A stretch of DNA of 64,000 nt from Pseudomonadota bacterium (lineage in GTDB: Bacteria > Pseudomonadota > Gammaproteobacteria > Steroidobacterales > Steroidobacteraceae). The translations under genes and the position numbers were made by a program. Every line of letters begins with the position of its first letter. Within the stretch, counting starts at the first letter, position 1. Below, one piece after another: positions 21,059 through 45,608 of this stretch. Where the stretch lies: positions 558,001-622,000 of the forward strand of contig JAFEDS010000016.1 of assembly GCA_018241505.1 (NCBI GenBank), in the 5' to 3' direction. The notes beneath the pieces are model-generated. The model had not been told where the DNA came from, searched no databases, and saw only the letters and a list, made by a program, of their open reading frames with translations.

Positions 21059-22097
21059 GGGACACAACAGCATGCCGGCAGGTCGAAGCCGCTCGGACGT
21101 GGCCGCCGAGTGGTATGTGCGCCTGCAGAGCGACAGCGCCTCGGAGGAGCTCCTCTCGGAGTTCCATCAGTGGCTGCAGGGTGATTCGCGCAACATTGTC
21201 GCTTTTCAGCGTGTGAGCGCGGTTTGGCACGGCATGGGCGAGCTTGCGTCCGCACCTGAGATCATGGTTGCTCGGCGCGATGCATTGGAGAACTCCCGTA
21301 GAGCGGCGCGCAACAGATGGTCGGTTCCCGCTTTTCGCGCCTCATGGAGACAGCGGCGCTCGATTCTGTGGACCGCGGCCGCGTGCCTGATGTTATCTCT
21401 CATCGTTGCGGTAATGTTCGGTAACCTGCCCGCATCAAAGGTGTATTCCACCGATCTTGGCGAACGCCGCAGCGTTCTGCTTCAGGACGGCTCCACCATT
21501 ACTCTCGACGCCCGAAGCCGTCTGCGTGTAACGCTCACGGAAAAGGCTCGGACCGTTGTCCTGGAGCAAGGCCAGGCGCGTTTTGGGGTTGCCAAAGACC
21601 CGCTGCGACCTTTTCGTGTGCAGGCGGGAAGTCAGGTTGTCACGGCCGTGGGAACCCAATTCGACGTCGAGCTCGTTTCGGGTAGCGTGCTCGTGACGTT
21701 GATGGAAGGACGAGTCGTCGTTGCCGGTGTCGAAGCCAAAGAGTTGGGGACTGCCTCGCCGCATGCTCATACTGTGGATCTGTATCCGGGCCAGAGAATC
21801 GCCATTCAAAAGGACGGAGCAACCGTACTCTCGTCGCAAGTGGATTTGGACCGGGCGAATGCCTGGCAGGCCGGCAAGTTCTTCTTCGAGAACGAGCCGC
21901 TCGGCAGTGCGGTGGAGCGCTTCAACCGCTACTCACGCCAGCGCATCACAATTGATCCCAACATCAGGTCGGTAACCGTCAGCGGCGTGTTCAATGCAGG
22001 CGAAGCCGCCCCTTTCATTGAAGCCCTGACATTGTATTTTCCCATCAAAGCCGACTATCCCGGCGATTCTGAAATCCATCTCTCCCCCCGGCTCTGA
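21051..22097 (+). CDS. FecR-family anti-sigma factor
   Basis: 348 residues. An N-terminal FecR cytoplasmic domain ('AAEWYVRLQSDSASEELLSEFHQWL', about 18-42) would bind the ECF sigma factor. A single membrane segment at ~104-124 is followed by the periplasmic FecR domain ('TDLGERRSVLLQDGSTITLDARSRL', 'VGTQFDVELVSGSVLVTLMEGRV') and a C-terminal domain ('FENEPLGSAVERFNRYSRQRITID') that contacts the STN domain of the receptor. Its start overlaps the restored sigma reading frame. The reading frame is intact even though the sigma gene before it is broken. It sits between the STN receptor and its STN-less paralogue. Confidence 0.92.
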   Translation: MTEGHNSMPAGRSRSDVAAEWYVRLQSDSASEELLSEFHQWLQGDSRNIVAFQRVSAVWHGMGELASAPEIMVARRDALENSRRAARNRWSVPAFRASWRQRRSILWTAAACLMLSLIVAVMFGNLPASKVYSTDLGERRSVLLQDGSTITLDARSRLRVTLTEKARTVVLEQGQARFGVAKDPLRPFRVQAGSQVVTAVGTQFDVELVSGSVLVTLMEGRVVVAGVEAKELGTASPHAHTVDLYPGQRIAIQKDGATVLSSQVDLDRANAWQAGKFFFENEPLGSAVERFNRYSRQRITIDPNIRSVTVSGVFNAGEAAPFIEALTLYFPIKADYPGDSEIHLSPRL

Positions 22098-22161
22098 GGC
22101 GAAACGCTCTGCCGCTGTGGTTTTCTGCTTCCCCGTCGTCGAAGTAGCTGACACGACAACA

Positions 22162-22174
22162 GGGCTTTCAGCCC
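22162..22174 (+). promoter_or_regulatory. Short hairpin upstream of the second receptor
   Basis: GGGCT-TTC-AGCCC, a 5-bp stem with a 3-nt loop, ends ~5 bases before the GGGGAG ribosome-binding site of the TBDR at 22192. It could affect access of ribosomes, or separate expression of FecR from the receptor. Stem strength is modest. Confidence 0.25.
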
Positions 22175-22191
22175 GATAGGGGAGTCACACC

Positions 22192-25100: not shown

Positions 25101-25206
25101 GGTGGAGGGTGCGGACGCGTTCACCTACCGCATCGGCTCGGTACCCGGTAACCTGTATGACTTCGCCGGTAGAACCTTCTTTGGCCGTGTTGGGATGAAA
25201 TTCTGA
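22192..25206 (+). CDS. TonB-dependent receptor, STN-less paralogue
   Basis: 1004 residues from ATG 22192 (GGGGAG 7 bases upstream). Signal peptide about 1-27 ('GLCLQSPATAAE'). There is no STN domain: 'EVVVTGSHLRPEYTASTPIQVVTVDEA' appears ~60 residues in. The plug and barrel track the receptor at 17049 almost residue for residue, including 'GGTNINSIALRNLGATRTLTLLDGRR' and the ending 'YDFAGRTFF...GMKF'. It should import a related ligand without signalling. Expression probably depends on the sigma/FecR genes upstream. The tricorn-like protease gene starts one base after its stop, so the two are co-translated. Confidence 0.93.
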   Translation: MRVDQDSCRLGIAVACGLIAGLCLQSPATAAEPAEAKVSAADSPTQALPDDTLALQEVVVTGSHLRPEYTASTPIQVVTVDEASSAGIVGAQGIVALSPAASGTQQINNLLSASGAGGAVSVGGTNINSIALRNLGATRTLTLLDGRRLTPAGVGSQVGPVDLNVLPSSIIERVEVLTDGASSVYGSDAVAGVVNIITKRGDGFEVNVFGSDPQHGGGRFEQASVFWGKKLERGFFNVAAEYNEQDALEVRQRPETACAHDYVFDAASGQRVDLRDPSGQFKCRNLNPTGVFFDQSFYGGWFQYDPTLSGGPYPAAALTLRGALPQWVRAGRAGYPDTYPYGTMDSPAYQNADVISPLRRLSIYSSGAYKLTDNIELYGDALLNQRTSSSASWMFLYPVLDATNPNNTVSAGLINASGGTSNGNVSPQMNMPVQFTQDVRYTQVSAGLRGNFTLGDFLRDGSWDISAQYGRSYGKYAQNFFYQDRLNAASGPGVACDPSLITVSGPTPCVSIPWLDPQFLVNQNWTPAQRNFLEGSEWGHTTYTQEVLEGLVRGSFLRLPAGSIDAALGYSMRFEDLDDEPGPNAQAHNYFAFSTAGATKGSDTVREVYGEVGIPLLADLPLIHRLTLSASGRYTDYRSYGSSETHKLGLNWEVIPSVSFRGTYGTSFRAPTLYELFLANQTSFFPYFDPCVRYGQNSSAIVQKNCAALGLPPDYAPSTTSIVATEGGGAGSLKAETSTNLTYGVVFKPAFADLQIAIDYYAINVRNEVATYGVNSIVSQCYGLAQGNAAFCDKITRDPLTHLITNVDNRLVNVAADRRRGIDLSVKYDVNLPVGHLGLRSQWSRTLTNELVREPSTPPEDDNGLSGNPKATGLAELTYTLRSLTFNYGINYIGPTNDLPYYEAQQINISNYYGSYAGRHQYGNSNDPQVVRELLSTPAYTLHYASAKWQFSENAFVQLGIKNLFDKQPPVEGADAFTYRIGSVPGNLYDFAGRTFFGRVGMKF

Positions 25207-32286: not shown

Positions 32287-33996
32287 CTAACGGCGCTGAT
32301 TGTCACTGCCTGCGCGAATGCCCAGGAATTCCGCCCCCGGCTTCCAAGCGGGCCAATGGCTCGAGTTGGCAATCTCCGCGCCGATGCGCACGGCAACGGC
32401 GGTTTCCTGTGCAGTGCCCTCGAAGGTCCACTTGGGATCGAATTCATCCTTGGGCTGGTGATATCGATTGACGTTGTAGTCCTCGGATCGGGCGGTACCG
32501 GCCGCAAGGCCGCCGACGAAGAGATCCCGGCCGACGCGGAAGCTCAAGGAAGGCACGCCGCGCTTTGCGAACGAATAGTGATCGGAACGAAAGTACCAAC
32601 CCGCCTCCGGATGCGGTTCGATCTCCAAGCGCATTCCTTCGGCAGCAGCGGCTCGAGCAAGCGCGTCTTCCAGGTCCGTGCGGCCGGCCCCCACCAGCTC
32701 GATGTCGCGCGCCTTGCCGAGCATCACATGCGGGTCCAAGTTGATCACCGCCGCCGTGTGCTCCAAGGGGTAGAGCGGATGACCTGCGTAGTACTCGGAC
32801 CCTAGGAGCCCTTTCTCCTCCGCGGCGTAAGCAATAAAGATCAGCGTGCGATCGGGCCTCCTGCCTCGAGAGAAAGTACGCGCCACTTCGAGCAGCTCGG
32901 CGGTGCCAGTCGCGTTGTCGACGGCGCCGTTGCGGATGTCATCACCGCTCTCATCGGGCGCACCTTTGCCGTTCGCGTCCCAGTGCGCGCCATAGAGGAC
33001 GAATTCCTCCGGGCGTTTGCCTCCGGGCAGGCGAGCCACCACGTTGCGGCTGACGATGTCATGAGAGCTCATGGTGAACTCTGCGGAGAAGAAGGCACCA
33101 TCCAAGTTCCGCCAATGAAACTCAGGCTTGCGCGCTTCGATCTTCAACTGCTGAAGATCAAAGCCAGCGCTGGCGAGCAACTCGCTCGCCACCTGCCACT
33201 GCAACCAGCCGCTGATCGCGGAGGACACCCCAGCGCCGTTGGCCGGGTTGGCTGGCGCGGCGGGGGTGGCCGCGGTGGTTGCGGTGGCCTGAGTCGGCGT
33301 AGAGGTGATCTCCATGCTGGCGATGCGGTCGCCGTTGGCGACCTGGCGCCAGGGATAGCTCGCGGCAGCATCTTCGTGGATCACCAGCACCGCGGCGGCG
33401 CCCGCTGCCTGGGCGGCCGCGACCTTCGCGCCAAAGCGACCGCCGTAGACCATGGCCTTGCCGTCGAACTTGCCATAGGCGGGACTATCCGGCGTGGCCT
33501 CGAAGTCAGGATCGTTGGCCAGGACCAGGGCAACCTTGCCGTGCAAATCGACCCCGGCAAAATTGTCCCAGCCCTTGTCCGGTGCCTTGATGCCATACCC
33601 TATGAAAACAATGGGCGCATCGATGACCTGGTTGTGGCCGGTGTTGTGGGAAGAGAGGGTTATGTCCTTCCCGGCCGTGAGGCTCCTGGCGCCGCCGCCC
33701 CGGGTCTTCAATGTGATGCCGACTGCCGGCTGGCGCTCGAAAACCCGCAAAGGGACCTCCTGAAACCAGGAGCCGTCGCTGCCGCCGGGCTGCAGTCCCG
33801 CGGCTGCGAATTGCTTTGCCAGATATTCGACCGTCTTGGCGTCGCCGGCTTGACCCGGCCCCCTCCCCTGGAATTCGTCGGCAGACAGGACGCGGACGTC
33901 CTCTCGCAGCCGTTGCTTCGAAATGGGAGCGAGTGCCTGCGCGATGGCGAGAGAGGTTGCCAGGGATAGTGACAAGAAGCCGGTGAGTTGTTTCAT
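32287..33996 (-). CDS. Secreted M28-family metallopeptidase with PA domain
   Basis: 569 residues with a signal peptide ending near 'SLAIAQA'. A protease-associated (PA) insert lies in the middle ('IVFIGYGIKAPDKGWDNFAGVDLHGKVALVLAND'). The M28 zinc ligands are visible in order: His in 'LYGAHWDANG', Asp in 'GAVDNATGTAELLEVA', the Glu pair in 'YAAEEKGLLGSEYY', Asp in 'INLDPH' and His in 'RSDHYSFAK'. It is expected to be a di-zinc aminopeptidase in the periplasm or outside. ATG overlaps the stop of the alpha/beta hydrolase (ATGA), making it the last gene of the TBDR operon. Confidence 0.93.
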   Translation of the reverse strand: MKQLTGFLSLSLATSLAIAQALAPISKQRLREDVRVLSADEFQGRGPGQAGDAKTVEYLAKQFAAAGLQPGGSDGSWFQEVPLRVFERQPAVGITLKTRGGGARSLTAGKDITLSSHNTGHNQVIDAPIVFIGYGIKAPDKGWDNFAGVDLHGKVALVLANDPDFEATPDSPAYGKFDGKAMVYGGRFGAKVAAAQAAGAAAVLVIHEDAAASYPWRQVANGDRIASMEITSTPTQATATTAATPAAPANPANGAGVSSAISGWLQWQVASELLASAGFDLQQLKIEARKPEFHWRNLDGAFFSAEFTMSSHDIVSRNVVARLPGGKRPEEFVLYGAHWDANGKGAPDESGDDIRNGAVDNATGTAELLEVARTFSRGRRPDRTLIFIAYAAEEKGLLGSEYYAGHPLYPLEHTAAVINLDPHVMLGKARDIELVGAGRTDLEDALARAAAAEGMRLEIEPHPEAGWYFRSDHYSFAKRGVPSLSFRVGRDLFVGGLAAGTARSEDYNVNRYHQPKDEFDPKWTFEGTAQETAVAVRIGAEIANSSHWPAWKPGAEFLGIRAGSDNQRR

Positions 33997-35003
33997 CTCT
34001 CCGAGTTTGCCACCTGGGATAGCACTTGAGAAACGGCATCTATCACCGCCTGGGGCGCATCGATCTGGACGTAATGGCTACTGCCGGGAACGATAAGATC
34101 AACGCCGCGTGTGGACAGCGCTGCCAGCTCCCCATGCATCTGCTTGATGATCCCAAGCAAGGTGTCGCGCTCGGTCGCAGACAAACCGGGTATTCTGGGC
34201 TCTGCGGCCGTCAGCACCACCAACGGAATTGAGCCATAGGAGCGGCGCGCAGCAGCGGCCTGATCCGAGCTCGGCCCCATGATCCCATCAAACTCCGACA
34301 GCTCCGACCGCAGGTGCTCCGATTTGCCGTTCAGGGCAGCCGCCGCGGCGTTTGCGGCGGGCGGAAGATCGGCCGCCGGCTGATCCTTACACATCTCATC
34401 GAGCTGGTTGCCCGGTTTACCCTTACCCTCGAGTCTATCGAGGCACCCCTGGAGAATTGCGCGCTGTTGATCAAACAGCGCGGCAATCCGGGGCAGCGAC
34501 CGCCCGATGCGCTTGTCCTGATGCTCAGTCGCCGGTTCTACGAGCACCATCCCCACGATCTCCTTCAAGTGCAGATCGGCGTAATAGCGCACGTTTAGAC
34601 CCCCGAGCGAATGTCCCACCAACACGTAGGGTGGCTTCAGGCCCGCAGCCTCAAACAAAGCCTTCATGTCCTGTGCGATATGCACCGCGTCCCGCGGCAA
34701 CGGGCCGGGATCGCTGAAACCCGATCCCGCGCGATCAAAGGCACACACTCGCGTACGTTCGGCCAGGCGCGAGTGGACCTTTCGCCATATCACTGCCGAA
34801 TCACCCAGCCCCGCATCCAGCAATACAGTGGGACTGCCGCTACCGATGCAGTAGATATTCATGGCGCGCCCGTCGGGCAGGCGCACGAGGCGCTGGGGGG
34901 AGGCATACACACGCCAGGAAGGATTGGGAGCCACAGTCGACGCGGCAATCATCAACACCCCACATCCCAGCCCGGCGAGCGCCCTGAAAATCAGGTGTTT
35001 CAT
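33993..35003 (-). CDS. Exported alpha/beta hydrolase
   Basis: 336 residues. An N-terminal hydrophobic segment ('ALAGLGCGVLMIAASTVA', residues 8-25) is a signal peptide or anchor. The nucleophile elbow is 'VGHSLGGLN', preceded by 'RAGSGFSDPG', and a C-terminal 'GSSHYVQIDAP' supplies the histidine. The fold resembles haloalkane-dehalogenase-like esterases. ATG follows the TBDR TAA directly (TAAATG), and the gene ends in a four-base overlap with the M28 peptidase start. It probably removes an ester or acyl group from the substrate that the TBDR brings in, before peptidase action. Confidence 0.87.
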   Translation of the reverse strand: MKHLIFRALAGLGCGVLMIAASTVAPNPSWRVYASPQRLVRLPDGRAMNIYCIGSGSPTVLLDAGLGDSAVIWRKVHSRLAERTRVCAFDRAGSGFSDPGPLPRDAVHIAQDMKALFEAAGLKPPYVLVGHSLGGLNVRYYADLHLKEIVGMVLVEPATEHQDKRIGRSLPRIAALFDQQRAILQGCLDRLEGKGKPGNQLDEMCKDQPAADLPPAANAAAAALNGKSEHLRSELSEFDGIMGPSSDQAAAARRSYGSIPLVVLTAAEPRIPGLSATERDTLLGIIKQMHGELAALSTRGVDLIVPGSSHYVQIDAPQAVIDAVSQVLSQVANSER

Positions 35004-37565
35004 TTAGAATTCCACATCAACGGAAGCGCCGAAGACTCGCGGCTGCAGAGGAACCGCATCGACACTGCCTATCAGGCCGGTCAAGGCGCTCTGCTGAGGC
35101 GCTTGCGACAGGTAAACGATGCGGTTGGTCAGGTTGCGGATGAAAAAGTTGAGTTTGTAACGCTCGAACCACAGTCCCATGCGCGCATCGCCGACGGTGT
35201 AGGCAGGTTGTTTGGCATTCGGCGACGCAGGATCCGCGGATACCGCACCGACATTCTCTTCACCTACATAGCGAATGCCGGCACCCACGTTGGCTTTCAG
35301 CCGTTGAGTGAGGGACCAGGAATAGTCGGCATTCAGACCGGCCGACCACACCGGCACTCCGGGGAGCTGGGGTCCCAGCCGGAACGGCGGTGCCCCGTCC
35401 AGGAGGCTGGTGAGGCGCCCTTTGTTGTAAGCGGCGTTGTAGCCCAGCCGAAGTCCTCGTGTCGGCCGCCAATCCCCCTCCAGCTCGAGTCCGCGACTGT
35501 AGGCATTGCCGGCATTGGCCAGATAGGAACAACTGCACGCGGCATTCACCACCTGCAGTTGAATCCCTTTCCAGTCAATGTAGTAACCGGTGATGTTGAA
35601 CAGCACCCGGCCATCGAGGAAAGTCGACTTCAAGCCCGCTTCATAACTCATCAGCGTATCTGAATCGACGGTCGGCTTCGCTCCGGCGATTGCCAGATTC
35701 GGCCCGCCCGGACGATATCCGGTCGCGACCTTGGCGTAGAGCATGACTTCGCGCGTGAATCGATACCGGCTCGAGCCGGACCACGTAGTGACGCCTTCCG
35801 AGGAATGGCCCGGCTGATCGGTAAATCCTCCGAGCACGAAGCCGTCGGTTATCTGCCGGAACTCCTGGCTGTTGTGGGCATACCGTACGCCGCCCGTAAC
35901 ATCGAACTGGGAAGTGACATTGAGGGTCAGGTCGCCGAAGGCGGCATGCTCCTTGTACGTACTGGGCAACTTTCCGTAGAAGAAGAATGGGGTGAACACG
36001 GGGTTGTTGATAGGTTGGTAGCTGCTGTCATAGACGCTGGCGAGCTGGTAGTTACTGTTCTTCTCATCTGTGTAAAAGCCGCCGATGAGCCATTCCAGCC
36101 TGCCTCCCGTTGCCGAAGCCGCACGTAACTCCTGCGTAAACTTCCGCAAATTCAAATCCAGCAGGTAATTGCTGTAGCCGCCCGCCGCCTCGCCCAGGGC
36201 CAGGGGAAACTCCCCGTAGGAACTGGTCGTGTCCTGAACTCGAACGGTGGCCGTTCTCGACCAGCTCGAAGCCGCTGTAACAGTGATGCCCAGCGGCGCG
36301 TCATAGTTGATCGTCCCCTCATAGTAGTCGAGCTTCTTGGAAAACGGCTGCTCGAAAGGATGGGAGCCGCTCAATCGGCCGAATACGGGCTGACCGCGGA
36401 AAAACCGCGCGCCCTGGTCCTCGTAAGTGCTGACATTCCCCAGAGTCACGATGGCGTCGTCGTCCGACTGCGTGCGGTTCCACAGCCCGCTCAAATTGAT
36501 GCGCAGGCCATCCAGAGGATTCCAACTCGCAGCCGCACGCCCGCCATACTCCCTGGCGGTGTTGCTGTCTGGATCGCGGACAAACACATCATCGGTAAAA
36601 CCTTGATAGCGGCGATCGTAGAGGCTGACCCGAATGCCCAATTGGTCCTGGATGAGTGGCATATTGCCCGCGGCGCGGACCGCGTAGCCGGCGCCACCGC
36701 CTTCCTGAGTATGACTGACCTCACCGCCCGCCTCCGCACTGTAAGTGTTGGTATTGGCCGGTTTCAGCACGTACTTGATCAAGCCGCCCATGGCTCCGCC
36801 GCCGTACAGTGTGCCTTGCGGCCCCCTCAGGACCTCCAGGCGGTCCAGATCGTAGGGCATCAGATCGAGCGCAAACAAAGCGGCCACGGCGTAATTGGAG
36901 CTCGATCCCAGCGGCGCGTCGTCGATGTAGTAGCTGACGAGCGACCCGGAGCCCAACACACCGATACCGCGAAGAGTGACCGATGTCTGGCCCGGCGACC
37001 CGCCGTCCTGGATGTTCAGCCCGGGCACGTACTGCGAGTAGTCAGCCAGGCGGCTCATGCCCAGATCGAGCAGCTTTGCACCCTGCACAGCGCTGACGGA
37101 AGTCGGTACCGTCTGGATGTTCTGAACGCGCTTCTCAGCAGTGACCACGACTTCTTCGAGAATGCCGCGGGATACATCATTGGCAGCGCGCGGTTCGGGC
37201 TGGCCGCTGCTGCGCGGCGCAGTTCCCGCCTCCGGAACCGGCGGGGAGCTCTGCAAGCTCAGCGGGACGATCGTAATGGCGTTGCGGTCCAGATACTCGA
37301 ATGTGAGACCGGTCCCGCGCAAAAGCTGCTTCAGTGCTTCCTCAAAAGTGAGATCGCCTGCAGCCCCGCCAGTGTACTGATCTTTGACCAGATCGCTGCG
37401 ATAGACGAGTTGAACATCGCGGTCTCTTGCCAGCATCTTCAGGGCCGGCGCCAGTTCCTGCGGCGCGATATCAACTGGCCGGCGGATCGCAGCCAGACCG
37501 TCGTCCGCATGAGTTATGCCGACCAAACTCAGGCACGCCAGGGCCAGCGCAACAGTTGCACGCAT
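35004..37565 (-). CDS. TonB-dependent receptor with STN signalling domain
   Basis: 853 residues from ATG 37565, chosen for its GGGGGAG site; the frame is open to 37700. Signal peptide to about 'SLVGITHADD'. STN domain about 25-80 ('VDIAPQELAPALKMLARDRDVQLVYRS'). TonB-box-like 'LEEVVVTAEKR', plug ending in 'LRGPQGTLYGGGAMGGLIKY', then barrel ending '...ASVDVEF'. The STN domain fits the sigma/FecR pair directly upstream. A class-D/E promoter element lies at 37634-37663, so the receptor has its own sigma-dependent start besides read-through from FecR. Confidence 0.93.
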   Translation of the reverse strand: MRATVALALACLSLVGITHADDGLAAIRRPVDIAPQELAPALKMLARDRDVQLVYRSDLVKDQYTGGAAGDLTFEEALKQLLRGTGLTFEYLDRNAITIVPLSLQSSPPVPEAGTAPRSSGQPEPRAANDVSRGILEEVVVTAEKRVQNIQTVPTSVSAVQGAKLLDLGMSRLADYSQYVPGLNIQDGGSPGQTSVTLRGIGVLGSGSLVSYYIDDAPLGSSSNYAVAALFALDLMPYDLDRLEVLRGPQGTLYGGGAMGGLIKYVLKPANTNTYSAEAGGEVSHTQEGGGAGYAVRAAGNMPLIQDQLGIRVSLYDRRYQGFTDDVFVRDPDSNTAREYGGRAAASWNPLDGLRINLSGLWNRTQSDDDAIVTLGNVSTYEDQGARFFRGQPVFGRLSGSHPFEQPFSKKLDYYEGTINYDAPLGITVTAASSWSRTATVRVQDTTSSYGEFPLALGEAAGGYSNYLLDLNLRKFTQELRAASATGGRLEWLIGGFYTDEKNSNYQLASVYDSSYQPINNPVFTPFFFYGKLPSTYKEHAAFGDLTLNVTSQFDVTGGVRYAHNSQEFRQITDGFVLGGFTDQPGHSSEGVTTWSGSSRYRFTREVMLYAKVATGYRPGGPNLAIAGAKPTVDSDTLMSYEAGLKSTFLDGRVLFNITGYYIDWKGIQLQVVNAACSCSYLANAGNAYSRGLELEGDWRPTRGLRLGYNAAYNKGRLTSLLDGAPPFRLGPQLPGVPVWSAGLNADYSWSLTQRLKANVGAGIRYVGEENVGAVSADPASPNAKQPAYTVGDARMGLWFERYKLNFFIRNLTNRIVYLSQAPQQSALTGLIGSVDAVPLQPRVFGASVDVEF

Positions 37566-37633: not shown

Positions 37634-37663
37634 TAAAGAGCGGTTGCGTGCCAATAGTGAATA
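37634..37663 (-). promoter_or_regulatory. Candidate ECF-sigma promoter of the first system (receptor)
   Basis: On the minus strand GGTATTC-N17-GCTCTTTA, read from 37665 to 37634. It lies between the FecR stop and the TBDR start. It shares both boxes with the element before this system's sigma gene (39396-39424) and differs from those of the second system. Confidence 0.55.
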
Positions 37664-37722
37664 CCTCGACCGCCGAATTATTTTTTTCCTGCGCGCACAA
37701 CCCGCCGCGCCGCGGGCCACCG

Positions 37723-38832
37723 TCATCGCTTGCCGATGCGAATCTCGCTGTCCGTCTCTTCGACTCTCAGCTCCGGCTGCGCGCGCAGAAACTTCAGGAA
37801 CAACGTCGGGTCCGCGGATGAAAACCGGCCGCTGATACGCATGTTACCCACGTCCAGGGCGGTGATGACGAGCCGCCGCTTGTTATATCGATTGAACTCA
37901 TCCGCCACTTCAGTGAGGGGCGAGGAATCAAACACCAGATTGTGCTGTGTCCATGCGGTTGCCGTTGCAACATTGGCCGCGTGCACAGCCGCAGCCGCTG
38001 TTTGCTCGCTCGCCGAGTTTCCCGCAGGAACGCTCAGTTGCTCCCCGGCAGCCAGCAGAATCCCATTCGCGCCCGTGCTGCTCGATTCTTCGGTGGGCGG
38101 TAGGGTTGCCGCCGCCCCACTCGGGCCGGCCGCAGACCTATCGGCGGAGACCTCCACTCTTCCCTCGACAACCGTAACAACTGTGGCCGCGCCCTTGCGG
38201 TAAACATCGAATTGCGTGCCGACCGCGAGCACCCGGGTCGCCCCGCTGTGAACGACAAACGGACGGGCCGCGTTGTGAGCGACGCGGAACAGTGCCTGCC
38301 CCTCGACAAGATCCAGGTCCCGTTGCTTTTCGCTGTAGCGAACCCGAACCCGCGAGCGTGAATTCAGGTCGAGTGTCGAGCCGTCGGCCAGAATGATCGA
38401 TCGCTGCTCGCCTATATCAGTGGAGTACGTGTTGCGGAAAAACGTGTACCACGTCGCCACTGACCCCACGGCGATCACCAACATCGCGGCGAGCGCCGGG
38501 GCTCTCCACCGGCTCGCGCGCCTGTCGCCGCCCTCCCGCGACGGCGACAACCGCGCCTGCACCGCTTTCCTGTCGGACCGGCCTTTGCCCACCAAAGAGC
38601 TGATGTTGACCTCACTGCGTGCGTCGTCCAATAGTTGCTCCGCCTCCGGGTTCCAGTCAGGCCCGAGGGCGGGAACGTCCTCCCAGATGGCGGACATTTC
38701 CAGGTAAGCGCGTACGTGCTGCGGAGACTCGCGTAACCAAGCGTCGAACCGTTCTTTTTCGGCAGGTCCCAGTCCACCGTCGCGATGTTTGACCAGCCAC
38801 TCGGTGGCCTCTTCGTAGATCTGAGTATTCAT
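37723..38832 (-). CDS. FecR-family anti-sigma factor
   Basis: 369 residues from ATG 38832 (8 bp after the sigma stop; the frame is open further upstream, inside the sigma gene). A cytoplasmic FecR domain ('YEEATEWLVKHRDGGLGPAEKERFDAWLRESPQHV') is followed by one membrane segment ('APALAAMLVIAVGSVATWYTFF', about 120-140), then the periplasmic 'TDIGEQRSIILADGSTLDLNSRSRVRVRY' and 'RVLAVGTQFDVYRKGAATVVTVVEGRVEV'. The C-terminal 'DSSPLTEVADEFNRYNKRRLVI' contacts the STN domain. It keeps the FecI-like sigma in check until the receptor binds its ligand. It is intact throughout. Confidence 0.92.
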   Translation of the reverse strand: MNTQIYEEATEWLVKHRDGGLGPAEKERFDAWLRESPQHVRAYLEMSAIWEDVPALGPDWNPEAEQLLDDARSEVNISSLVGKGRSDRKAVQARLSPSREGGDRRASRWRAPALAAMLVIAVGSVATWYTFFRNTYSTDIGEQRSIILADGSTLDLNSRSRVRVRYSEKQRDLDLVEGQALFRVAHNAARPFVVHSGATRVLAVGTQFDVYRKGAATVVTVVEGRVEVSADRSAAGPSGAAATLPPTEESSSTGANGILLAAGEQLSVPAGNSASEQTAAAAVHAANVATATAWTQHNLVFDSSPLTEVADEFNRYNKRRLVITALDVGNMRISGRFSSADPTLFLKFLRAQPELRVEETDSEIRIGKR

Positions 38833-38840
38833 GCTCGACA

Positions 38841-39362
38841 CTACTTCCGGTCCTTCAGGTACTGCCGGCAATGAAGCAGAGCCTTGGTCAGGTATTTGGC
38901 CGCGTTGGCACGCGAAAACCCGAGCCGCGCACCGATTTCCTCGAGCGAATAGCCATCGCGGCGGTGCAGAAGCAACACCGCCCGGGCTTTGGGCGACAAC
39001 TGGCTCAAAGCGCCCTGCAGCGCCTGCAACTGCTGTTGCATCTGCGCCTGTACGCAAGGGTCTTCAGCCGGGGACGACTCCATTTCGTTGATCAGGGCCG
39101 TGATCTCCACGGCCTCAGGCGCCGCCGCCCTGCGCAACAGGTGCTGATGGAGCACGTGGAAGGCGACCATGTACAGGTACGACTCGGAGCTGCGGATCGT
39201 CTCGTGCCGATCAATGCGCAGCATCCGCAAGAACACTTCCTGAACCAGATCCTCCACATCCACGGCACCCTGCCGCAGCCGCGAGGCCAGAAACCGCCGC
39301 AAGCGTTGCCCGTGCTGCCGTTCCAGGTCAGCAACAAATGCCTGCTTTTCGCTCGAGCTCAA
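38841..39362 (-). CDS. FecI-like ECF sigma factor
   Basis: 173 residues from TTG 39362, with GGGGG 7 bases upstream. Sigma region 2 'RFLASRLRQGAVDVEDLVQEVFLRMLRI' and region 4 'LLHRRDGYSLEEIGARLGFSRANAAKYLTKALLHCRQYL' are both intact. It forms an operon with the FecR gene after it. A promoter element matching the one in front of the receptor lies 34 bases upstream, which suggests the sigma factor drives its own gene. Confidence 0.93.
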   Translation of the reverse strand: MSSSEKQAFVADLERQHGQRLRRFLASRLRQGAVDVEDLVQEVFLRMLRIDRHETIRSSESYLYMVAFHVLHQHLLRRAAAPEAVEITALINEMESSPAEDPCVQAQMQQQLQALQGALSQLSPKARAVLLLHRRDGYSLEEIGARLGFSRANAAKYLTKALLHCRQYLKDRK

Positions 39363-39395
39363 ATGCGCCCCCGTTACCTACGTACCCCTCCAGAG

Positions 39396-39424
39396 TAAAG
39401 AGCAGTTACGGCGAAAAACGAATA
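39396..39424 (-). promoter_or_regulatory. Candidate ECF-sigma promoter of the first system (sigma gene)
   Basis: On the minus strand GGTATTC-N16-GCTCTTTA. Same two boxes as the element before the receptor gene at 37634-37663. It sits upstream of the sigma gene start at 39362. Confidence 0.55.
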
Positions 39425-39466
39425 CCCAGGCCATGAGGAAATTTCCCCTGCCGCGAAGCTGTGATT

Positions 39467-39817
39467 CTATTTCCGAAGAACCTTGTCCATGGCCTTCCCC
39501 TTGGCGAGCTCATCGACCATCTTGTCCAGGTAGCGGATTTCCCGCATGACAGGCTCTTCGATGCTCTCGATTCTGACGCCGCAGACGACTCCGGTGATCA
39601 AGGCTCTCGATGGATTCATTCGAGGCGCCTGGGCGAAGAAGTCCTCGTAGTTGGTCTGTTTCTGGAGTTGACCTTCGAGTGCCTTCTGGGAGTACCCGGT
39701 GAGCCAGCGAATGACTTCGTCGACTTCAGCCTGCGTACGCCCCTTCTTCTGCGCCTTGGCCACCAGGAGCGGATACACCCTGGCAAAACTCATTGAGTAG
39801 ATGCGATGCTTTGTCAT
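39467..39817 (-). CDS. DUF2200-family protein
   Basis: 116 residues, soluble and small. The sequence '[40 protein letters not shown]' matches the conserved core I know as DUF2200. Function unknown. It lies between the two sigma-receptor systems and is not obviously part of either; its own promoter would fall in the 39818-39901 gap. Base composition matches its neighbours. Confidence 0.8.
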
Positions 39818-39836
39818 TCATCAACCTGGCCATAGA

Positions 39837-39855
39837 AATCAGTCACTTACTGATT
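39837..39855. terminator. Inverted repeat between receptor and DUF2200 genes
   Basis: AATCAGT-CACTT-ACTGATT: 7-bp arms and a 5-nt loop, 47 bases after the stop of the receptor at 39902. On the minus strand a short TTTCTAT follows, so it may be a weak intrinsic terminator. An operator for the DUF2200 gene is the alternative. Confidence 0.4.
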
Positions 39856-39901
39856 CTACAGGAGAGCCAACCCGCTCGTCTCCCCTCTCGCTGCGGATGA
39901 G

Positions 39902-42454
39902 TCAGAACTCCGTTGTCACGCTCAGCCCGACGGTACGGCGTTCGAGCAGGCCCACCTGAACCGGTCCGCCCAGGGACGCGTAGGTCGCCGAGGCGGATAG
40001 CTGACCTGCCCTGTCGAACAAGTTGTGAACATAGGCCTGTAAGGCCCAACTTCCCAGCATGACGCCACTGCGCAGATCGAAGCTCGTGTAGCTCGGCAAC
40101 ATATATTGAGGAATAGTCAAATTCTGCGAGTAGGAAGTAGTCCGGTCCGAGTTGAACCGCAACGAGGCGCCGACACTGGGCTGCAGTTGCGAGGCGGTAT
40201 ACCGATAATCAGCAGTCACCGACTCTGTGAAGCGCGGCACGTTGGGCAGTCGCTCCCCAGCTTGCCCTCCCAACGCCGTGCTTGCGTCGACCAACCGAGC
40301 GTCCTGATAGGCGAAGCCACTCGTCAGTGTCAAATCGCGCACCGGGCGCGCTGTAAAAGTCAGCTCGGCACCGTTGATCCGCGCACGCCGGCCGTTTGCG
40401 ATGACCGAAGCGGGCCCAACGACCGTCCGCAACTGGATATCCGACCAATTGATGCGATAACCCGATACCTCGTAGCCGAACACGCGCTCGTCGCTTTCAC
40501 CCTTCGCACCGATCTCATAACTCTTCAGGCTATCCGAGTCAAACGTGGGTTTATTGAGCCGTTCCCCCGTCGTGGGATCGACCACCAACGTGTTAGGCCC
40601 GCCGGGGCGGTATCCCGTAGCGAACCGTGCGTAGACGTTGTTGTGTTCGTTGATCTTGTACCGGGCATCCGCCAGGTAGGTTTCGACGGTGTCCTTCGAT
40701 CGTGCCAATGGCAGGCTGCCTACCAGCAGGCCGGTCCCGATTTGTTCGAAGCGCTGATTGTTATGTGCCACGCGCGCACCACCAGAGACCTCGAGCGCAT
40801 CGGTGATCCGCCAGGATAGGTTGCCGAAGCCGGCCAGCTCCGCGTAGTGGCTCGGCACGTTGGCATTCGCCAGGACCAAGGGCAGAGGGCGGCCCGTTCC
40901 ATCGGCCACCACCACGTTACTGCCGAATGAGGTGGACTCACCCGTATAAAACCCGCCGATCAGCCACCGCAGCGTATGCTCGCCTGTCGAGCCCAGGCGA
41001 ACCTCTTGCGTGAACTTATGTGTCGCCGGAGTTTGATCGATCGCGGCGCGCACGACACCGAAGGCCCCGAGCAGCGGCCCATAGACTGCCGAAAGATCAT
41101 TGCGGTAGAAAGTCTCCACCGTCTGGTAGCTCGTGATGGAGGTCAGTTGGGCGGCCCCAAAGTCATAGGTGACAGTCGCGCTGCCCAGGCGAAACTTCTG
41201 ATCGAATGGTTCCGGATACAACCTGGACTGGTCGTACGATCCGGCGATCGGCTGCCCGCTCGAGGTAAAGTCGGCGGTAGCCGCTCCTTTGCGGTGAATG
41301 TCCTGGAGGAAGCCGCCCAGGCGCACCGACAGTCCGTCAATCGGCGTCAGGAGCAGATCGAGCCTGCCACCATAAGTATTGGATCGATCGACGTCCGGCT
41401 GCCCCATGGCTAGGTTGTCATACAAACCGCCATCGCGTGAAAAGTAGCCGCTGGCTCTCAGAGCAGCCTTGTCCGGAGCCAGCGGAACGTTCACGGCGGC
41501 TGCACCGTTGTATCCGATACCACCGCCCCACGTATCCGCAACGCCCGCCTGCATTCCTCCGTGAACACCCGCCGTGGATGGAGCTTGGGTCACATATTTG
41601 ATGAGGCCACCCATCGTACTGGCACCGTAGAGTGTTCCCTGCGGTCCGCGCAGAATCTCGATTCGCTGCAAATCGAAAAGGCCGAGATCGAGCGCAAGGA
41701 CGGATGAGCTGGAGTATACCGTTGAGCCGCCGTAGGGGACGTCGTCGACATAGACGCCTACGGTGGGGCTGATATCGGCACCGCTGGTGACACCGCGCAG
41801 GGTTATCTGTGTTTGACCCTCTCCTACGCTAGTAAAAGTCAGTGCGGGAACTGTGTTGGCGAAATCACGGAACCGCAGCGCATTCAGCCTCTGCAGATCC
41901 GCTCCAGTCAATGCGGTGACCGATTGCGGCGTGTCGATGAGCCGTTCCGCCGTTTTGCGAGCAGTGACGACAACCTCCTCGAGCAGCACGCCTGCTGTCC
42001 CTTCCTCCCTCGAGTTGGAGTCCACAGGGCTGTTTGTGACCGGCACATCCGCGGCACTGGCAATTCTGGTTGTCAGTATCCGGTTTCCCTGAGAATAGCT
42101 CCCGACATAGTCCGAAGGGTCCTGCCCGTCCGATTTACTGTTGGAACTGACAGGTACGATCGTCACCGTCTTGTCGTCCAGGTATGAATACCCCAGACTC
42201 GTTCCTTCCAACAACCTCGTCAGTGCTTCCGTCGTGGTGAGGTCTCCCACAGCTCCCTGTGTGCGCGCAGTCCCCACGACCTCCGCGAGGAATACGACAT
42301 GCAGACCCCGCTCGCGTGCCAACGTCTTCAGGGCCGGCACCAACTCCTGCGCGGGAATATTCGTGGATTTCCGGATCGAGGCCTGTACATCCTGCCCGGC
42401 ACACAGACCCACCGCCGACAGGCACACTACCGCCACAAAAACTGCTACTCGCAC
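39902..42454 (-). CDS. TonB-dependent receptor with STN signalling domain
   Basis: 850 residues from GTG 42454, picked because GGAGGGG stands 3 bases upstream and a signal peptide starts there ('VAVFVAVVCLSAVGLCAGQ'); the open frame to 42844 overlaps FecR and is not coding. STN domain about 28-80 ('TNIPAQELVPALKTLARERGLHVVF'), TonB-box-like 'LEEVVVTARKTAERL', plug with 'EILRGPQGTLYGASTMGGLIKYV', barrel ending '...LSVTTEF'. Two residues before the end are acidic/Thr, as in the neighbouring receptors. It is the sensing receptor of the second system; promoter element 42528-42556 precedes it. Confidence 0.92.
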   Translation of the reverse strand: MRVAVFVAVVCLSAVGLCAGQDVQASIRKSTNIPAQELVPALKTLARERGLHVVFLAEVVGTARTQGAVGDLTTTEALTRLLEGTSLGYSYLDDKTVTIVPVSSNSKSDGQDPSDYVGSYSQGNRILTTRIASAADVPVTNSPVDSNSREEGTAGVLLEEVVVTARKTAERLIDTPQSVTALTGADLQRLNALRFRDFANTVPALTFTSVGEGQTQITLRGVTSGADISPTVGVYVDDVPYGGSTVYSSSSVLALDLGLFDLQRIEILRGPQGTLYGASTMGGLIKYVTQAPSTAGVHGGMQAGVADTWGGGIGYNGAAAVNVPLAPDKAALRASGYFSRDGGLYDNLAMGQPDVDRSNTYGGRLDLLLTPIDGLSVRLGGFLQDIHRKGAATADFTSSGQPIAGSYDQSRLYPEPFDQKFRLGSATVTYDFGAAQLTSITSYQTVETFYRNDLSAVYGPLLGAFGVVRAAIDQTPATHKFTQEVRLGSTGEHTLRWLIGGFYTGESTSFGSNVVVADGTGRPLPLVLANANVPSHYAELAGFGNLSWRITDALEVSGGARVAHNNQRFEQIGTGLLVGSLPLARSKDTVETYLADARYKINEHNNVYARFATGYRPGGPNTLVVDPTTGERLNKPTFDSDSLKSYEIGAKGESDERVFGYEVSGYRINWSDIQLRTVVGPASVIANGRRARINGAELTFTARPVRDLTLTSGFAYQDARLVDASTALGGQAGERLPNVPRFTESVTADYRYTASQLQPSVGASLRFNSDRTTSYSQNLTIPQYMLPSYTSFDLRSGVMLGSWALQAYVHNLFDRAGQLSASATYASLGGPVQVGLLERRTVGLSVTTEF

Positions 42455-42527
42455 CGCCCCTCCAACGCCTCTTACGAGACTGCTTGTTATTACTGCCAGC
42501 CCCGATGTCTGGTCAGTCGCTGAAGCG

Positions 42528-42556
42528 TTAGAGCGCTGGGGTCGAAAAAAGGGATA
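42528..42556 (-). promoter_or_regulatory. Candidate ECF-sigma promoter of the second system (receptor)
   Basis: On the minus strand TATCC-N17-GCTCTAA. The surrounding ~34 bases are almost identical to the element before the esterase gene at 45563-45591, including a T-rich tract after the -35-like box. It lies between FecR and receptor genes. Confidence 0.6.
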
Positions 42557-42612
42557 AAGATGGGCCGGGAATTCTCGTTGTAACAAGACAACGAGCCGGG
42601 TGGCAGCGACGT

Positions 42613-43722
42613 TCACTTCCTGGAAATGCGGATTTCCCCTCCCGCCTCCACCACATGGATGCCCTGCTGAGCCCGCAGGAAACGCAGCAGCAAGCCCGGA
42701 TCCGCAGACGGGAAGACTCCGGTCACATGAAACGTCGCCACGATGGGATCGCTGATAACCAACTTGCGCCTGTTGTAGCGATTGAACTCCTGCGCGACTT
42801 CGGCCAGAGGTGTCATCTCGAAAACCAGCTCCCGTTGGGTCCACGCTGTCGCCGCCCGCACGTCAGCGGGGCGCGGCCTCGGAACCTCCTGATCTGTCAC
42901 AGTGACTTGCTCGCCAGTGGAAACCAACACCGACGGGGAGCCGGCTTCGCTTGTGGAGCGGTCAGCCGTGAGTTGCGCTGGCGGCAATGCTTCCTGGGCA
43001 AAGACGGCTACCCGGCCCTCCAGAACCGTGACCTGCGTGCCAGAAGCCTTTCGGTACACGTCAAACTGCGTACCCACCGCGCGCACGCGTGTGCCAGCAC
43101 TTTGCACCACGAACGGCCGGGTAAGATCCTTGGCGACCTTGAACAACGCCTGGCCCTCGACCAACTCCACTTCGCGCTCGCGCTCCGAGAATCGGATCCG
43201 CACGCGCGACTCGGAGTTGAGCTCAATGATTGAGCCATCCGCGAGATGCGCGATCCGCTGTTCGCCCGTACCTGTGGCAAAGTGTGTATGCCGATAGGCA
43301 TTCAGCCCAACGAGTCCGAGACCTGAGCAGGCCAGCAACAACGAGGCCAGTACCGCCGACCGCCAGGAAACCAATCTCGATAGCCGCGCGATTCCGACGC
43401 GCACTGTACTAACATTCACGCGAGCTGACGGGACAGGTGCTTGACGGCTCGAGGCACCGCTTTCACCCGCCAGCGTGATGACCTTCGTACTGGCGCGCGC
43501 GCGGGCGATCAGAGCATCGAGGTTATAGCCCAGATCGAGCTTCGAATCCTCGAGCTCCTCGCACAGGCAGGAGATCTGCAAAAAGGCTCGGATATGCTCC
43601 GGGGAACGGCGAAACCAGGCGTCCAACCGCTCACGCGCGGCCGCATCCATCTCGCCCAGGTGCAACTCAACGACCCACTCGGAGGCCTCCTCGTAAACTT
43701 GCTTGTTGCGGCTCTTCTGCAT
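42613..43722 (-). CDS. FecR-family anti-sigma factor
   Basis: 369 residues from ATG 43722 (AGGAG 8 bases upstream, overlapping the sigma stop region; an earlier in-frame start at 43758 lies inside the sigma gene). N-terminal 'YEEASEWVVELHLGEMDAAARERLDAWFRRSPEHI' binds sigma. A membrane segment ('SAVLASLLLACSGLGLVGLNAY') precedes periplasmic 'TGTGEQRIAHLADGSIIELNSESRVRIRF' and 'RVRAVGTQFDVYRKASGTQVTVLEGRVAVF'. The C-terminal 'MTPLAEVAQEFNRYNRRKLVI' is the STN-contacting part. It is close to the FecR of the first system in layout and wording, which points to duplication of the whole unit. Confidence 0.92.
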   Translation of the reverse strand: MQKSRNKQVYEEASEWVVELHLGEMDAAARERLDAWFRRSPEHIRAFLQISCLCEELEDSKLDLGYNLDALIARARASTKVITLAGESGASSRQAPVPSARVNVSTVRVGIARLSRLVSWRSAVLASLLLACSGLGLVGLNAYRHTHFATGTGEQRIAHLADGSIIELNSESRVRIRFSEREREVELVEGQALFKVAKDLTRPFVVQSAGTRVRAVGTQFDVYRKASGTQVTVLEGRVAVFAQEALPPAQLTADRSTSEAGSPSVLVSTGEQVTVTDQEVPRPRPADVRAATAWTQRELVFEMTPLAEVAQEFNRYNRRKLVISDPIVATFHVTGVFPSADPGLLLRFLRAQQGIHVVEAGGEIRISRK

Positions 43723-43732
43723 GGAGCGTCTC

Positions 43733-44251
43733 CTAGCCCTCCAACTTCTTCTGCTCATCGCACAGAGACAAGGCCCTTGCGAAATACTTTTTCACACTGT
43801 GTGTCGACACGCCGAGCTTCTCGGCGATCTCGCCCAACTTCATGCCGTACTGCAGGCGCATCACCAATGTCGCATGGACATGCGGCGGCAGGCTTTGCAA
43901 TGTTCGATCGAGCGCTTGCAGACGCTGCTGCGCATCCACCTGCGCGGAAGGGTCGGGGTGGCCGGCCGTCTGCCGATCGACCATTTCACCCAGCGCTTCC
44001 AGGGATTCAGGCATGGCGGCGCTGCGCAAGATATGCTGATGCAAGACGTGGCCCGCGACCGTCATGACATAGGCGGCCGGATTGCGGATCGAGTCGGGCC
44101 CGACCCGCAGAATGCGCAGAAACACCTCTTGCTCCAGATCCGACACATCAGGAGAGTTGTTGCGCAGGCGCGAGCTGAGGTAACGGCGCAGTCGCCTCCC
44201 ATACCTCGTCGCGATCTCGTTGACAAACGCCTTTCTCTCGTCGATCTTCAA
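43733..44251 (-). CDS. FecI-like ECF sigma factor
   Basis: 172 residues from TTG 44251 (GGAG 6 bases upstream; upstream translation is not sigma-like). Region 2 'RRYLSSRLRNNSPDVSDLEQEVFLRILRV' and region 4 'LVMRLQYGMKLGEIAEKLGVSTHSVKKYFARAL' are intact. As in the first system the start is TTG within a conserved leader, and a candidate promoter (44302-44330) of the same class as its receptor's lies upstream. FecR follows with 10 bp between. Confidence 0.92.
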   Translation of the reverse strand: MKIDERKAFVNEIATRYGRRLRRYLSSRLRNNSPDVSDLEQEVFLRILRVGPDSIRNPAAYVMTVAGHVLHQHILRSAAMPESLEALGEMVDRQTAGHPDPSAQVDAQQRLQALDRTLQSLPPHVHATLVMRLQYGMKLGEIAEKLGVSTHSVKKYFARALSLCDEQKKLEG

Positions 44252-44301
44252 TGCGGCTCCGGTGTACCTACGGCTTTCCCCACAGGCGGCAGTCAAATGT
44301 A

Positions 44302-44330
44302 TTAGAGCGGCCGGCGAGGGAAAATAGATA
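44302..44330 (-). promoter_or_regulatory. Candidate ECF-sigma promoter of the second system (sigma gene)
   Basis: On the minus strand TATCT-N17-GCTCTAA, the class shared with 42528-42556 and 45563-45591. It lies upstream of the sigma start at 44251 and may mark autoregulation. Confidence 0.5.
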
Positions 44331-44358
44331 ATGGCGGACACAGGCAGCGGAAGGGCTC

Positions 44359-44577
44359 ATGCGCATATCTGCGATGACCGCGTTCATCCTGGCTGGCAGC
44401 CTCGTGCTGAGCGGCTGCGGCACAGCCGCCCCACGAAGCGGCGCGGATCCCGGCAAGACGACGCAAATAGCACTACAGAAAATCGATCGCATTTGCGCAT
44501 TGCCGCACGCCGAGCGCGATGCGCAGCTCAACAAACTCAAAGCACAAACCGGCGTGTTTCTCGTTTGCAGCCAGTGA
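44359..44577 (+). CDS. Small lipoprotein
   Basis: 72 residues. The signal peptide has a lipobox 'LVLSGC' (Cys20), so the mature ~53-residue protein should be acylated and held in the inner or outer membrane. The rest ('RICALPHAERDAQLNKLKAQTGVFLVCS') is a short helical part with two cysteines that could pair. GGAAGGG stands 4 bases before ATG. It is divergent from the sigma gene of the second system and shares its 107-bp upstream gap. Function unknown. Confidence 0.75.
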   Translation: MRISAMTAFILAGSLVLSGCGTAAPRSGADPGKTTQIALQKIDRICALPHAERDAQLNKLKAQTGVFLVCSQ

Positions 44578-44583
44578 CCAGCA

Positions 44584-45522
44584 TCAACACCGGCCTGCCG
44601 GACCGCCTCGGTAACAGGCGCGCAGGAAGCTGAACCACGCTGGCACCGCTCCGGTCATGTGAGTTTCCATAGGGATGATCTCGGTGGATACTCGAAGTCC
44701 GGGCAAGGGATGCTGACTCGTCTGAGCGAGCAGTTCGCTGGTGCCGCGGGCAGTGAGCCACTGGTAGACGCTGGATTCCGCAAGTTCGCGCGCGCCCAGA
44801 GTGATGTGCAGTTGGCGTCCCGAATAGTCATCCTTCGAAGCGACCGCTTGACGGTACATATGGAAGATCTGACTGTTTTCGCCGACGATACCTGGGCTGC
44901 TGGCGCCGATGCGCTTGAACAAGCTCGATCGCGTGAGCGCCACATAGGCCGAAAACAAGCCGCCGTAAGAGACGCCCCACAGGCCGACATCATTTGCGTC
45001 GATCCGGAAGGTTTGCGCCAGCCGCGGATGCAGCTCATTCTCCAGAAAGTCGAGGAACTTGTCGCCCGCAGGGTGCGCGAACATCGCCACATATCGATCG
45101 GCTTCGTCCCGCGGCAGCAGGCCGGCCTTCACACTCATTTCAACCGCCTGAAGCATGACCTCCGGCACCGGTTCCTCCGGGGGGAGCAGATCACGAACGC
45201 GCAGCCAGACCCATGCGCTACTTTCACGCTCGGAATAACCGACGGATACCAGAATGAAGGGAATGTGAGGCGAGAGGGCGTCGCTTTGTCCCGGCTGATG
45301 AAACGGCGCCGTAGTCGGAAAGAAAAGATTCCCATCCACTTGGTAAACGATCGGATAGGCCTGGGTCTGGTCGGCGTCGTATTGCGCCGGCGGCGTGACC
45401 CAGACGCCGAAACGGGCCCCGGCTGACTTCGAGTCAATCTCGAAATAGCGGGTGGACGGAAAGAGTGCCCCAAATGAAGCCTGGGTCTCGGTCAGTTCGA
45501 ATGAATCCTGGGTCGCTGACAT
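44584..45522 (-). CDS. Esterase of the Fes/BesA-like alpha/beta-hydrolase family
   Basis: 312 residues from ATG 45522 (GGGAG 9 bases upstream; the frame is open to 45645 but includes the promoter element). 'YPIVYQVDGNLFF' and the nucleophile elbow 'GLWGVSYGGLFSAYVAL' match the putative-esterase group that includes siderophore esterases. A His in 'METHMTG' is likely catalytic. No signal peptide. Its own promoter is nearly identical to that of the receptor at 42454, so it belongs to that regulon even though not adjacent to the receptor. Hydrolysis of an imported ester, possibly a ferri-siderophore, is a fair hypothesis and no more. Confidence 0.8.
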   Translation of the reverse strand: MSATQDSFELTETQASFGALFPSTRYFEIDSKSAGARFGVWVTPPAQYDADQTQAYPIVYQVDGNLFFPTTAPFHQPGQSDALSPHIPFILVSVGYSERESSAWVWLRVRDLLPPEEPVPEVMLQAVEMSVKAGLLPRDEADRYVAMFAHPAGDKFLDFLENELHPRLAQTFRIDANDVGLWGVSYGGLFSAYVALTRSSLFKRIGASSPGIVGENSQIFHMYRQAVASKDDYSGRQLHITLGARELAESSVYQWLTARGTSELLAQTSQHPLPGLRVSTEIIPMETHMTGAVPAWFSFLRACYRGGPAGRC

Positions 45523-45562
45523 GAAAGAAGACTCCCGCCGCTTCTGGCCACTTCGTAAAACG

Positions 45563-45591
45563 TTAGAGCGTTGGAGTCGGAAAAAGGGATA
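45563..45591 (-). promoter_or_regulatory. Candidate ECF-sigma promoter of the second system (esterase)
   Basis: On the minus strand TATCC-N17-GCTCTAA, -10-like box ending 41 bases before the esterase ATG. It shares ~30 of 34 bases with the receptor's element at 42528-42556. Confidence 0.6.
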
Positions 45592-45608
45592 AAGAGGGCC
45601 GGTTGCGG

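Follow-up and report, generated by a model that had tools for sequence, protein, structure and literature searches.

Does each of two adjacent FecI-like sigma systems in a Steroidobacteraceae bacterium switch on its own genes? The question arises in a 64,000-nucleotide stretch of contig JAFEDS010000016.1 (positions 558,001 to 622,000; assembly GCA_018241505.1), hereafter the window, whose minus strand carries two complete FecI-like systems, each comprising genes for an extracytoplasmic function (ECF) sigma factor, a FecR-like regulator, and a TonB-dependent receptor. FecI-like sigma factors have been set apart on this very point: Rhodius 2013 omitted the FecI-like groups ECF05-10 because they 'do not autoregulate' (PMC3817407), and PMC8103513 repeats the FecI-like exception to autoregulation. 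In the window, five short elements precede the two sigma genes, the two receptor genes, and an esterase gene. Our analysis indicates that these elements are very probably promoters of the two FecI-like ECF sigma factors, with autoregulation and receptor activation as the predicted outcome. The elements, scored with the expectation-maximization (EM) model described below, are as follows.

37634..37665, minus strand: element T1, GGTATTC - 17 - GCTCTTTA, before receptor 1; EM score 13.6
39396..39426, minus strand: element S1, GGTATTC - 16 - GCTCTTTA, before sigma 1; EM score 13.6
42528..42558, minus strand: element T2, TTTATCC - 17 - GCTCTAA, before receptor 2; EM score 10.6
44302..44332, minus strand: element S2, ATTATCT - 17 - GCTCTAA, before sigma 2; EM score 9.8
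45563..45593, minus strand: third system-2 element, TTTATCC - 17 - GCTCTAA, before the esterase gene

The sequence bears out the five minus-strand elements of the original prediction at their positions. Counted from the five-base box on, class 1 reads TATTC-N17-GCTCTTTA at 37634-37663 and TATTC-N16-GCTCTTTA at 39396-39424, and class 2 reads TATCC-N17-GCTCTAA at 42528-42556 and 45563-45591 and TATCT-N17-GCTCTAA at 44302-44330. The class follows the system at all five sites, as had been proposed. The description of the elements by a shared TATYC/T box, a 16- to 17-bp spacer, and GCTCTWA stood as far as the elements themselves are concerned, whereas GCTCTWA matches, on the minus strand, the three class 2 sites only. 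The downstream motif common to all five is GCTCT, preceded by GGTATTC, TTTATCC, or ATTATCT. GCTCTWA was therefore rejected as a shared motif, being absent from class 1 and not enriched on its own (4 occurrences in the window versus 6.83 expected). The tail of GCTCT (TTTA versus AA) was likewise rejected as a class marker, since it differs among close relatives of sigma 1: four of these (L068, L070, L090, and L092; 67-78% identical) all keep GGTATTC, while their tails vary among GCTCTTAT, GCTCTTTA, GCTCTAAT, and GCTCTATA. The class is thus marked by the upstream box rather than by this tail.

The window's assembly (G000; 7.88 Mb, 93.9% complete) was searched for both class patterns, with reversed patterns as controls. 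TATYYN{16,17}GCTCTWA gave three matches (reversed control, 2) and TATTCN{16,17}GCTCTTTA gave two (reversed control, 0); the five elements are the only exact matches to the class patterns in the genome, all within the window. Relaxed patterns added three matches for class 1 (control, 0) and two for class 2 (control, 6). Because all five extra matches lie inside long open frames, they were taken for chance, although those of class 1 exceed their own control. A wider regulon was rejected in this search, which sought no changed boxes, since the relaxed patterns add only these five; each regulon looks local.

The paired-element rule extends far beyond the window, across the family. A search of G000 with sigma 2 returned 45 sigma-factor matches at E ≤0.001, including sigma 2 itself and sigma 1. 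Four further sigmas of this genome are 41-54% identical to sigma 2, and a FecR-like match was found in 20 of 20 stretches taken around further sigma matches. Each of the four closest paralogous systems has a sigma-side and a receptor-side element, with a system-private upstream box (ACCCACTT in L036, GGTTTC in L037, GGGGGTATAAA in L038, and GGTGTCCACTG in L039) and GCTCT as the downstream box, except for ACTCT on the L038 receptor side. More relatives came from a scan of genome contigs, in which the best 80 of 116 relatives were kept (79 loci), and from an order-wide search with at most eight candidates scored per genome, which gave at least 56 matches in 23 of 396 genomes; the matches listed all fall in the window's family, Steroidobacteraceae. 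Of these 56, 49 lie outside G000, and 47 of the 49 were taken, most of them repeating contig-scan loci. After removal of identical sigmas, 118 of 160 systems were left; 68 whose sigma scored ≥130 bits entered the model, and 50 weaker ones were left out. A receptor gene is on the stretch in 61 of the 68 modelled systems, and the other seven are without one.

To these systems we fitted a two-block EM model, started from the observed consensus and fitted on the same stretches as were scored, which favours the real count. In the model, a gap of 11-12 separates the box GGTAnCCAnTTT from [G/A]CTCT[A/T]. In 55 of the 61 related sigma/FecR/TonB-receptor systems, both the element before the sigma gene and that before the receptor gene score >4. 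This score was exceeded by 123 of 129 real upstream regions; among the controls, it was exceeded by 16 of 129 reversed stretches, 13 of 129 reverse-complemented ones, 56 of 645 Markov stretches, and 2 of 64 stretches from fecR interiors; a score >8 was obtained for 102 real regions and for 3, 2, 3, and 0 of the respective controls. The elements keep a constant position: relative to sigma starts projected by homology (n = 65), the downstream (−10) box begins at a median of −42, and relative to receptor starts (n = 58), at −76.

Within a system, the two elements resemble each other. In a test that preceded the EM step and covered the 34 of 55 systems with a literal [GA]CTCT on both sides, similarity to the system's own partner was 9.12, versus 4.28 under permutation (standard deviation 0.40, maximum 6.18), and 0 of 20000 permutations reached the own value. 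With the EM boxes of all 55 systems, 1.62 of 10 positions mismatch within own pairs, compared to 4.88 of 10 in other pairs; identity in own versus other pairs is 84% versus 51% for the upstream (−35) box and 88% versus 75% for the −10 box. A position-based scan of the loci of the 55 systems for third sites gave nine (control, 1). Only the esterase site is an exact third copy, with 0 mismatches; of the others, which have 2 mismatches each, one in L107 is on the same strand and seven are on the opposite strand. The segment of the esterase site (45543-45598) and that of T2 (42508-42563) agree at 45 of 56 bases on the minus strand, spacer and downstream bases included, which suggests that a promoter segment was copied.

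L107 carries a possible second sigma-type element with two box mismatches; its −10 box lies near base 3458 on the plus strand of the locus, approximately 1.4 kb upstream of the sigma-side element, which is on that strand too. In L073, L074, L096, and L183, ACCCT replaces GCTCT in both promoters, and these systems share an unusual region 2.3/2.4 stretch, ALANHVLYQ. Among more distant FecI-like systems, a shared score of 12 was reached by 6 of 27, versus 19 of 702 cross pairs; pairing is thus present in some of them but not general there. L045, L043, L117, L126, L130, and L041 are such distant systems with paired elements, but their boxes are different ones; L045, for instance, has GGGGACCA and CCCCGTCATG.

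Which part of the sigma factor goes with which box was read from a partial Mantel profile of the 55 systems, in which box distance was compared with sliding 12-residue sigma windows while the rest of the protein was controlled (residue numbering of sigma 1). The −35 box peaked at residues 141-152 (0.564; 0 of 2000 permutations) and the −10 box at residues 65-76 (0.443; 0 of 2000), and the crossed values were near zero (−0.05 and −0.08, at 64-75 and 142-153). Pfam places its region-4 match at 113-165, which contains the −35 peak, and its region-2 match at 15-79, which contains the −10 peak. On the basis of what is generally known of ECF sigma factors, aided by an alignment with SigE, we take residues 141-152 to be the region 4.2 helix-turn-helix and residues 65-76 to be region 2.3/2.4. 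Receptor-side sites alone gave 0.565 for the −35 box (0 of 2000) and 0.369 for the −10 box (3 of 2000), and the peaks shift by no more than 1-2 residues when sigma-side or receptor-side sites are used alone. The peak positions also hold with 39, 26, and 17 divergent representatives, and a fixed offset from the literal [GA]CTCT (n = 29) placed the −35 peak at 140-151 (0 of 1000). A secondary −10 peak begins at residue 38 (0.278). A residue-by-base code was considered from single-residue values, and no claim is made for it.

Because differences in the upstream box track region 4.2 and differences in the downstream box track region 2.3/2.4, each sigma would appear to read its own pair. The sequences, positions, pairing, and two separate co-variations are direct observations, and at the sequence level the elements qualify as cognate promoters by being paired and by co-varying with regions 4.2 and 2.3/2.4. 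The assignment of the elements to the sigma factors, which the original prediction had marked as conjecture, thereby gains independent support from the two-box co-variation; its proposal that each ECF sigma autoregulates and drives its own receptor is likewise supported, at the sequence level, by the positions of the elements, an arrangement that recurs in 55 of 61 related systems.

Several results weigh against promoters read in this way. In six of the 61 systems (L079, L082, L103, L104, L105, and L056), one side has no convincing element, and 3-12% of control stretches exceed a score of 4. With 17 representatives the −35 peak loses significance (120 of 1000 permutations reach the peak), and the −10 peak is weak at 26 (25 of 1000) and 17 (47 of 1000). 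For the −35 box, single residues 17 and 47 (0.34 and 0.31) approach residue 151 (0.40), and there are secondary peaks at 162-173 (0.346) and, with receptor-side sites only, near residue 17 (0.36). Such secondary peaks outside region 4.2, and a correlation of 0.55 between overall sigma distance and −35 box distance, would fit a co-variation that reflects merely the shared ancestry of whole sigma genes and promoters. The profile, however, controls for the rest of the protein, its peaks differ per box, and its crossed values are near zero. Moreover, among neighbours more than 50% divergent, those chosen by region 4.2 differ at 3.94 of 10 positions of the −35 box, compared to 4.87 for the rest of the sigma, 4.23 for the whole sigma, and 5.33 for the mean of eligible neighbours; for the −10 box, region 2.3/2.4 gives 1.02 versus 1.29 for the whole sigma. 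This advantage has its limits: for neighbours 30-40% divergent, region 4.2 and the whole sigma predict the −35 box without a gain (2.53/2.59 and 3.11/2.94), and region 4.2 clearly beats the whole sigma for this box only at 45% and 50% divergence. On balance, shared ancestry as the sole cause is decidedly unlikely. Alternatively, the paired elements might be recent copies of a promoter segment in each locus, uninformative on recognition. Such duplication fits T2 and the esterase segment, which are alike through the spacer; between sigma side and receptor side, however, spacers are 39% and downstream bases 31% identical, close to the 32% and 28% seen between systems. Since the boxes agree but the spacer and downstream bases do not, the sigma/receptor pairs are not simple duplicated segments, and we give this explanation almost no credence.

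Position and similarity alone cannot tell an operator from a promoter, and the elements might accordingly be operators of a separate local regulator. Each of the two boxes, however, co-varies with a separate DNA-reading part of the sigma factor, in the correct place for that box, and the box-to-box distance is nearly fixed (120 of the 123 elements have a gap of 11 or 12, out of a permitted 11 to 15), so that operators are very improbable. Precedent speaks against autoregulation itself: fecIR and hasI are reported not to be autoregulated (PMC9249621), and Stenotrophomonas maltophilia HemI is described without autoregulation (PMC12772443). By analogy with Escherichia coli fecIR, the receptor-side element could be cognate while the sigma-side element serves chiefly another factor, with no true autoregulation. 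Against this, sigma-side boxes match receptor-side boxes, and sigma-side sites alone give the same peaks (0.461 for the −35 and 0.454 for the −10 box; 0 of 2000 each). An arrangement of the fecIR kind is thus unlikely here, and we retain the interpretation that both elements of a pair are promoters of the same sigma factor.

Transcription from these promoters, signalling through FecR, and autoregulation in the cell are what we infer from the comparisons above. In the mechanism we propose, a ligand-loaded STN-type TonB-dependent receptor would signal via FecR, and the sigma factor would be released. Region 4.2 of the released sigma would bind the private −35 box, and its region 2.3/2.4 the GCTCT −10 box, which is for the most part shared between systems. 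The sigma would act at two places: at the genes for itself and its FecR partner, giving positive autoregulation, and at the receptor operon. From the copied promoter segment, sigma 2 would additionally drive the esterase gene. Paralogs in the same genome would be kept apart mainly by joint diversification of the −35 box and region 4.2, with the −10 box and region 2.4 helping separation in some systems.

Little cross-talk between the two window systems, as originally proposed, is plausible. In the 10-base box, the system 1 pair differs at 2 positions, and its sigma-side box differs from the system 2 receptor box at 4; the corresponding values for system 2 are 3 and 5. In G000, the sigma-side box is nearest its own receptor-side box in 6 of 6 systems (the two of the window and the four closest paralogs). 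A broader set comprised five multi-system genomes with 39 systems grouped by hand, three weak-scoring ones included. With the −35 box alone, the own receptor box was strictly nearest in 20 systems and tied in 11, and optimal assignment was correct for 33; inclusion of the −10 box changed these values to 27, 6, and 36, respectively. Insulation of this degree is not general, because the L039 sigma-side box lies close to the system 1 receptor box (only 2 of 10 mismatches) and several Peristeroidobacter soli systems have near-identical −35 boxes, some of which differ in the −10 box. Cross-talk may occur among those P. soli systems, as well as between L039 and system 1.

Taken together, it is likely that a large FecI-like subfamily, of which Steroidobacteraceae carry many parallel copies, reversed the textbook wiring, so that nearly every copy autoregulates from a promoter of its own and is insulated from others in the same cell by co-diversification of region 4.2 and the −35 box and, less frequently, of region 2.4 and the −10 box. 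If true, this subfamily would hold a natural promoter-recognition code for FecI-like sigma factors, which were omitted from earlier code-learning. With a cognate-type promoter pair in most of its systems, recognition residues and bases could be read from sequence, the cognate targets of new systems could be predicted, and it would become testable how the many paralogous receptors of one cell are insulated. Furthermore, the predicted positive feedback would alter the switching expected of such receptor systems.

The genes of the two systems and their neighbours, all on the minus strand, are listed below.

32287..33996, minus strand: M28 family peptidase, Pfam Peptidase_M28 151.5 bits; overlaps the end of the hydrolase gene
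33993..35003, minus strand: alpha/beta hydrolase, Pfam Abhydrolase_1; directly 3' of receptor 1, by adjacency
35004..37565, minus strand: TonB-dependent receptor 1 with an N-terminal STN signalling domain; Pfam STN, Plug, and barrel above cut-off
37723..38832, minus strand: FecR-like sigma regulator 1, Pfam FecR 83.8 bits, DUF4880
38841..39362, minus strand: sigma 1, FecI-like ECF sigma factor, Pfam Sigma70_r2 and r4_2; TTG start proposed
39902..42454, minus strand: TonB-dependent receptor 2, by Pfam; GTG start proposed
42613..43722, minus strand: FecR-like sigma regulator 2, Pfam FecR 74.9 bits
43733..44251, minus strand: sigma 2, FecI-like ECF sigma factor, Pfam Sigma70_r2 and r4_2; TTG start proposed
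44584..45522, minus strand: esterase, upstream of system 2, by Pfam Esterase and solved-structure matches

Both sigmas are ECF (group IV) factors with region 2 and region 4 domains only, in approximately 170 residues, and downstream of each come genes for a FecR-like regulator and an STN-type receptor, as in FecI-like surface signalling; the STN match of receptor 2 is slightly below the Pfam cut-off (27.3 versus 28.4 bits, E 3.1e-6). Neither sigma is a ferric-citrate FecI equivalog by the NCBIfam model ECF_sigma_FecI (73.0 and 66.4 bits; cut-off, 260), although a FecI model is the best NCBIfam match of both. We infer that the hydrolase and M28 peptidase genes belong to the receptor 1 operon. 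In solved-structure matches, esterase residues ~143-230 resemble siderophore esterases (IroE/ferric enterobactin esterase); this likeness, together with the system 2 promoter, raises the possibility that system 2 serves an ester-linked siderophore. A third set of genes lies on the plus strand of the window at 20457-25206, where a sigma gene (~20457-21056) is followed by genes for a FecR protein (21051-22097) and for a TonB-dependent receptor (22192-25206) with plug and barrel matches and no STN match. This sigma gene has an apparent frameshift between regions 2 and 4, with a homology match confined to residues 12-77, and appears to be a pseudogene or a sequence error.

In the E. coli Fec system, the gene order is sigma, FecR-like regulator, and STN-type TonB-dependent receptor. 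The window systems resemble FecI-FecR-FecA in this order and in FecI models being the best, albeit sub-cut-off, NCBIfam matches of their sigmas. They differ in that E. coli fecIR is reported to be Fur-regulated and not autoregulated (PMC9249621), whereas a cognate-type element stands before the sigma genes in the window too. Moreover, at the fecA promoter −35 changes are described as far weaker in effect than −10 changes (PMC9249621), whereas in the window the −35 box is the private part. The autoregulated ECF groups from which promoter codes were learned are alike in carrying the same promoter before the sigma gene and its targets (PMC3817407; Todor 2020 via PMC8103513) and in that region 4 reads the −35 box and region 2 the −10 box (PMC3817407); as treated in that source, they exclude FecI-like factors, whereas the systems described here are of the FecI-like kind and have paired promoters. 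Leptospira LIC_12757, an ECF sigma with the FecR-like partner LIC_12756, is reported to be positively autoregulated (PMC12155086), and thus autoregulation of a FecR-partnered sigma is not unique to the present systems. LIC_12757 differs in being listed as ECF229 (PMC12655853), and in the available text no Leptospira TonB receptor is said to have an N-terminal signalling extension (PMC12155086). VreA-VreI-VreR (PUMA3) of Pseudomonas aeruginosa shares TonB-type surface signalling, and self-induction of its sigma is discussed (PMC2729926); there, sigma and receptor seemingly form one operon and self-induction is called unusual (PMC2729926), whereas two separate cognate-type promoters are present in the window. 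Among the literature matches listed, judged by title and the start of the abstract, no paper addressed paired promoters in FecI-like Steroidobacteraceae systems. Altogether, autoregulated ECF sigma factors were already known, and what appears to be new here is FecI-like systems with a putative cognate promoter pair.

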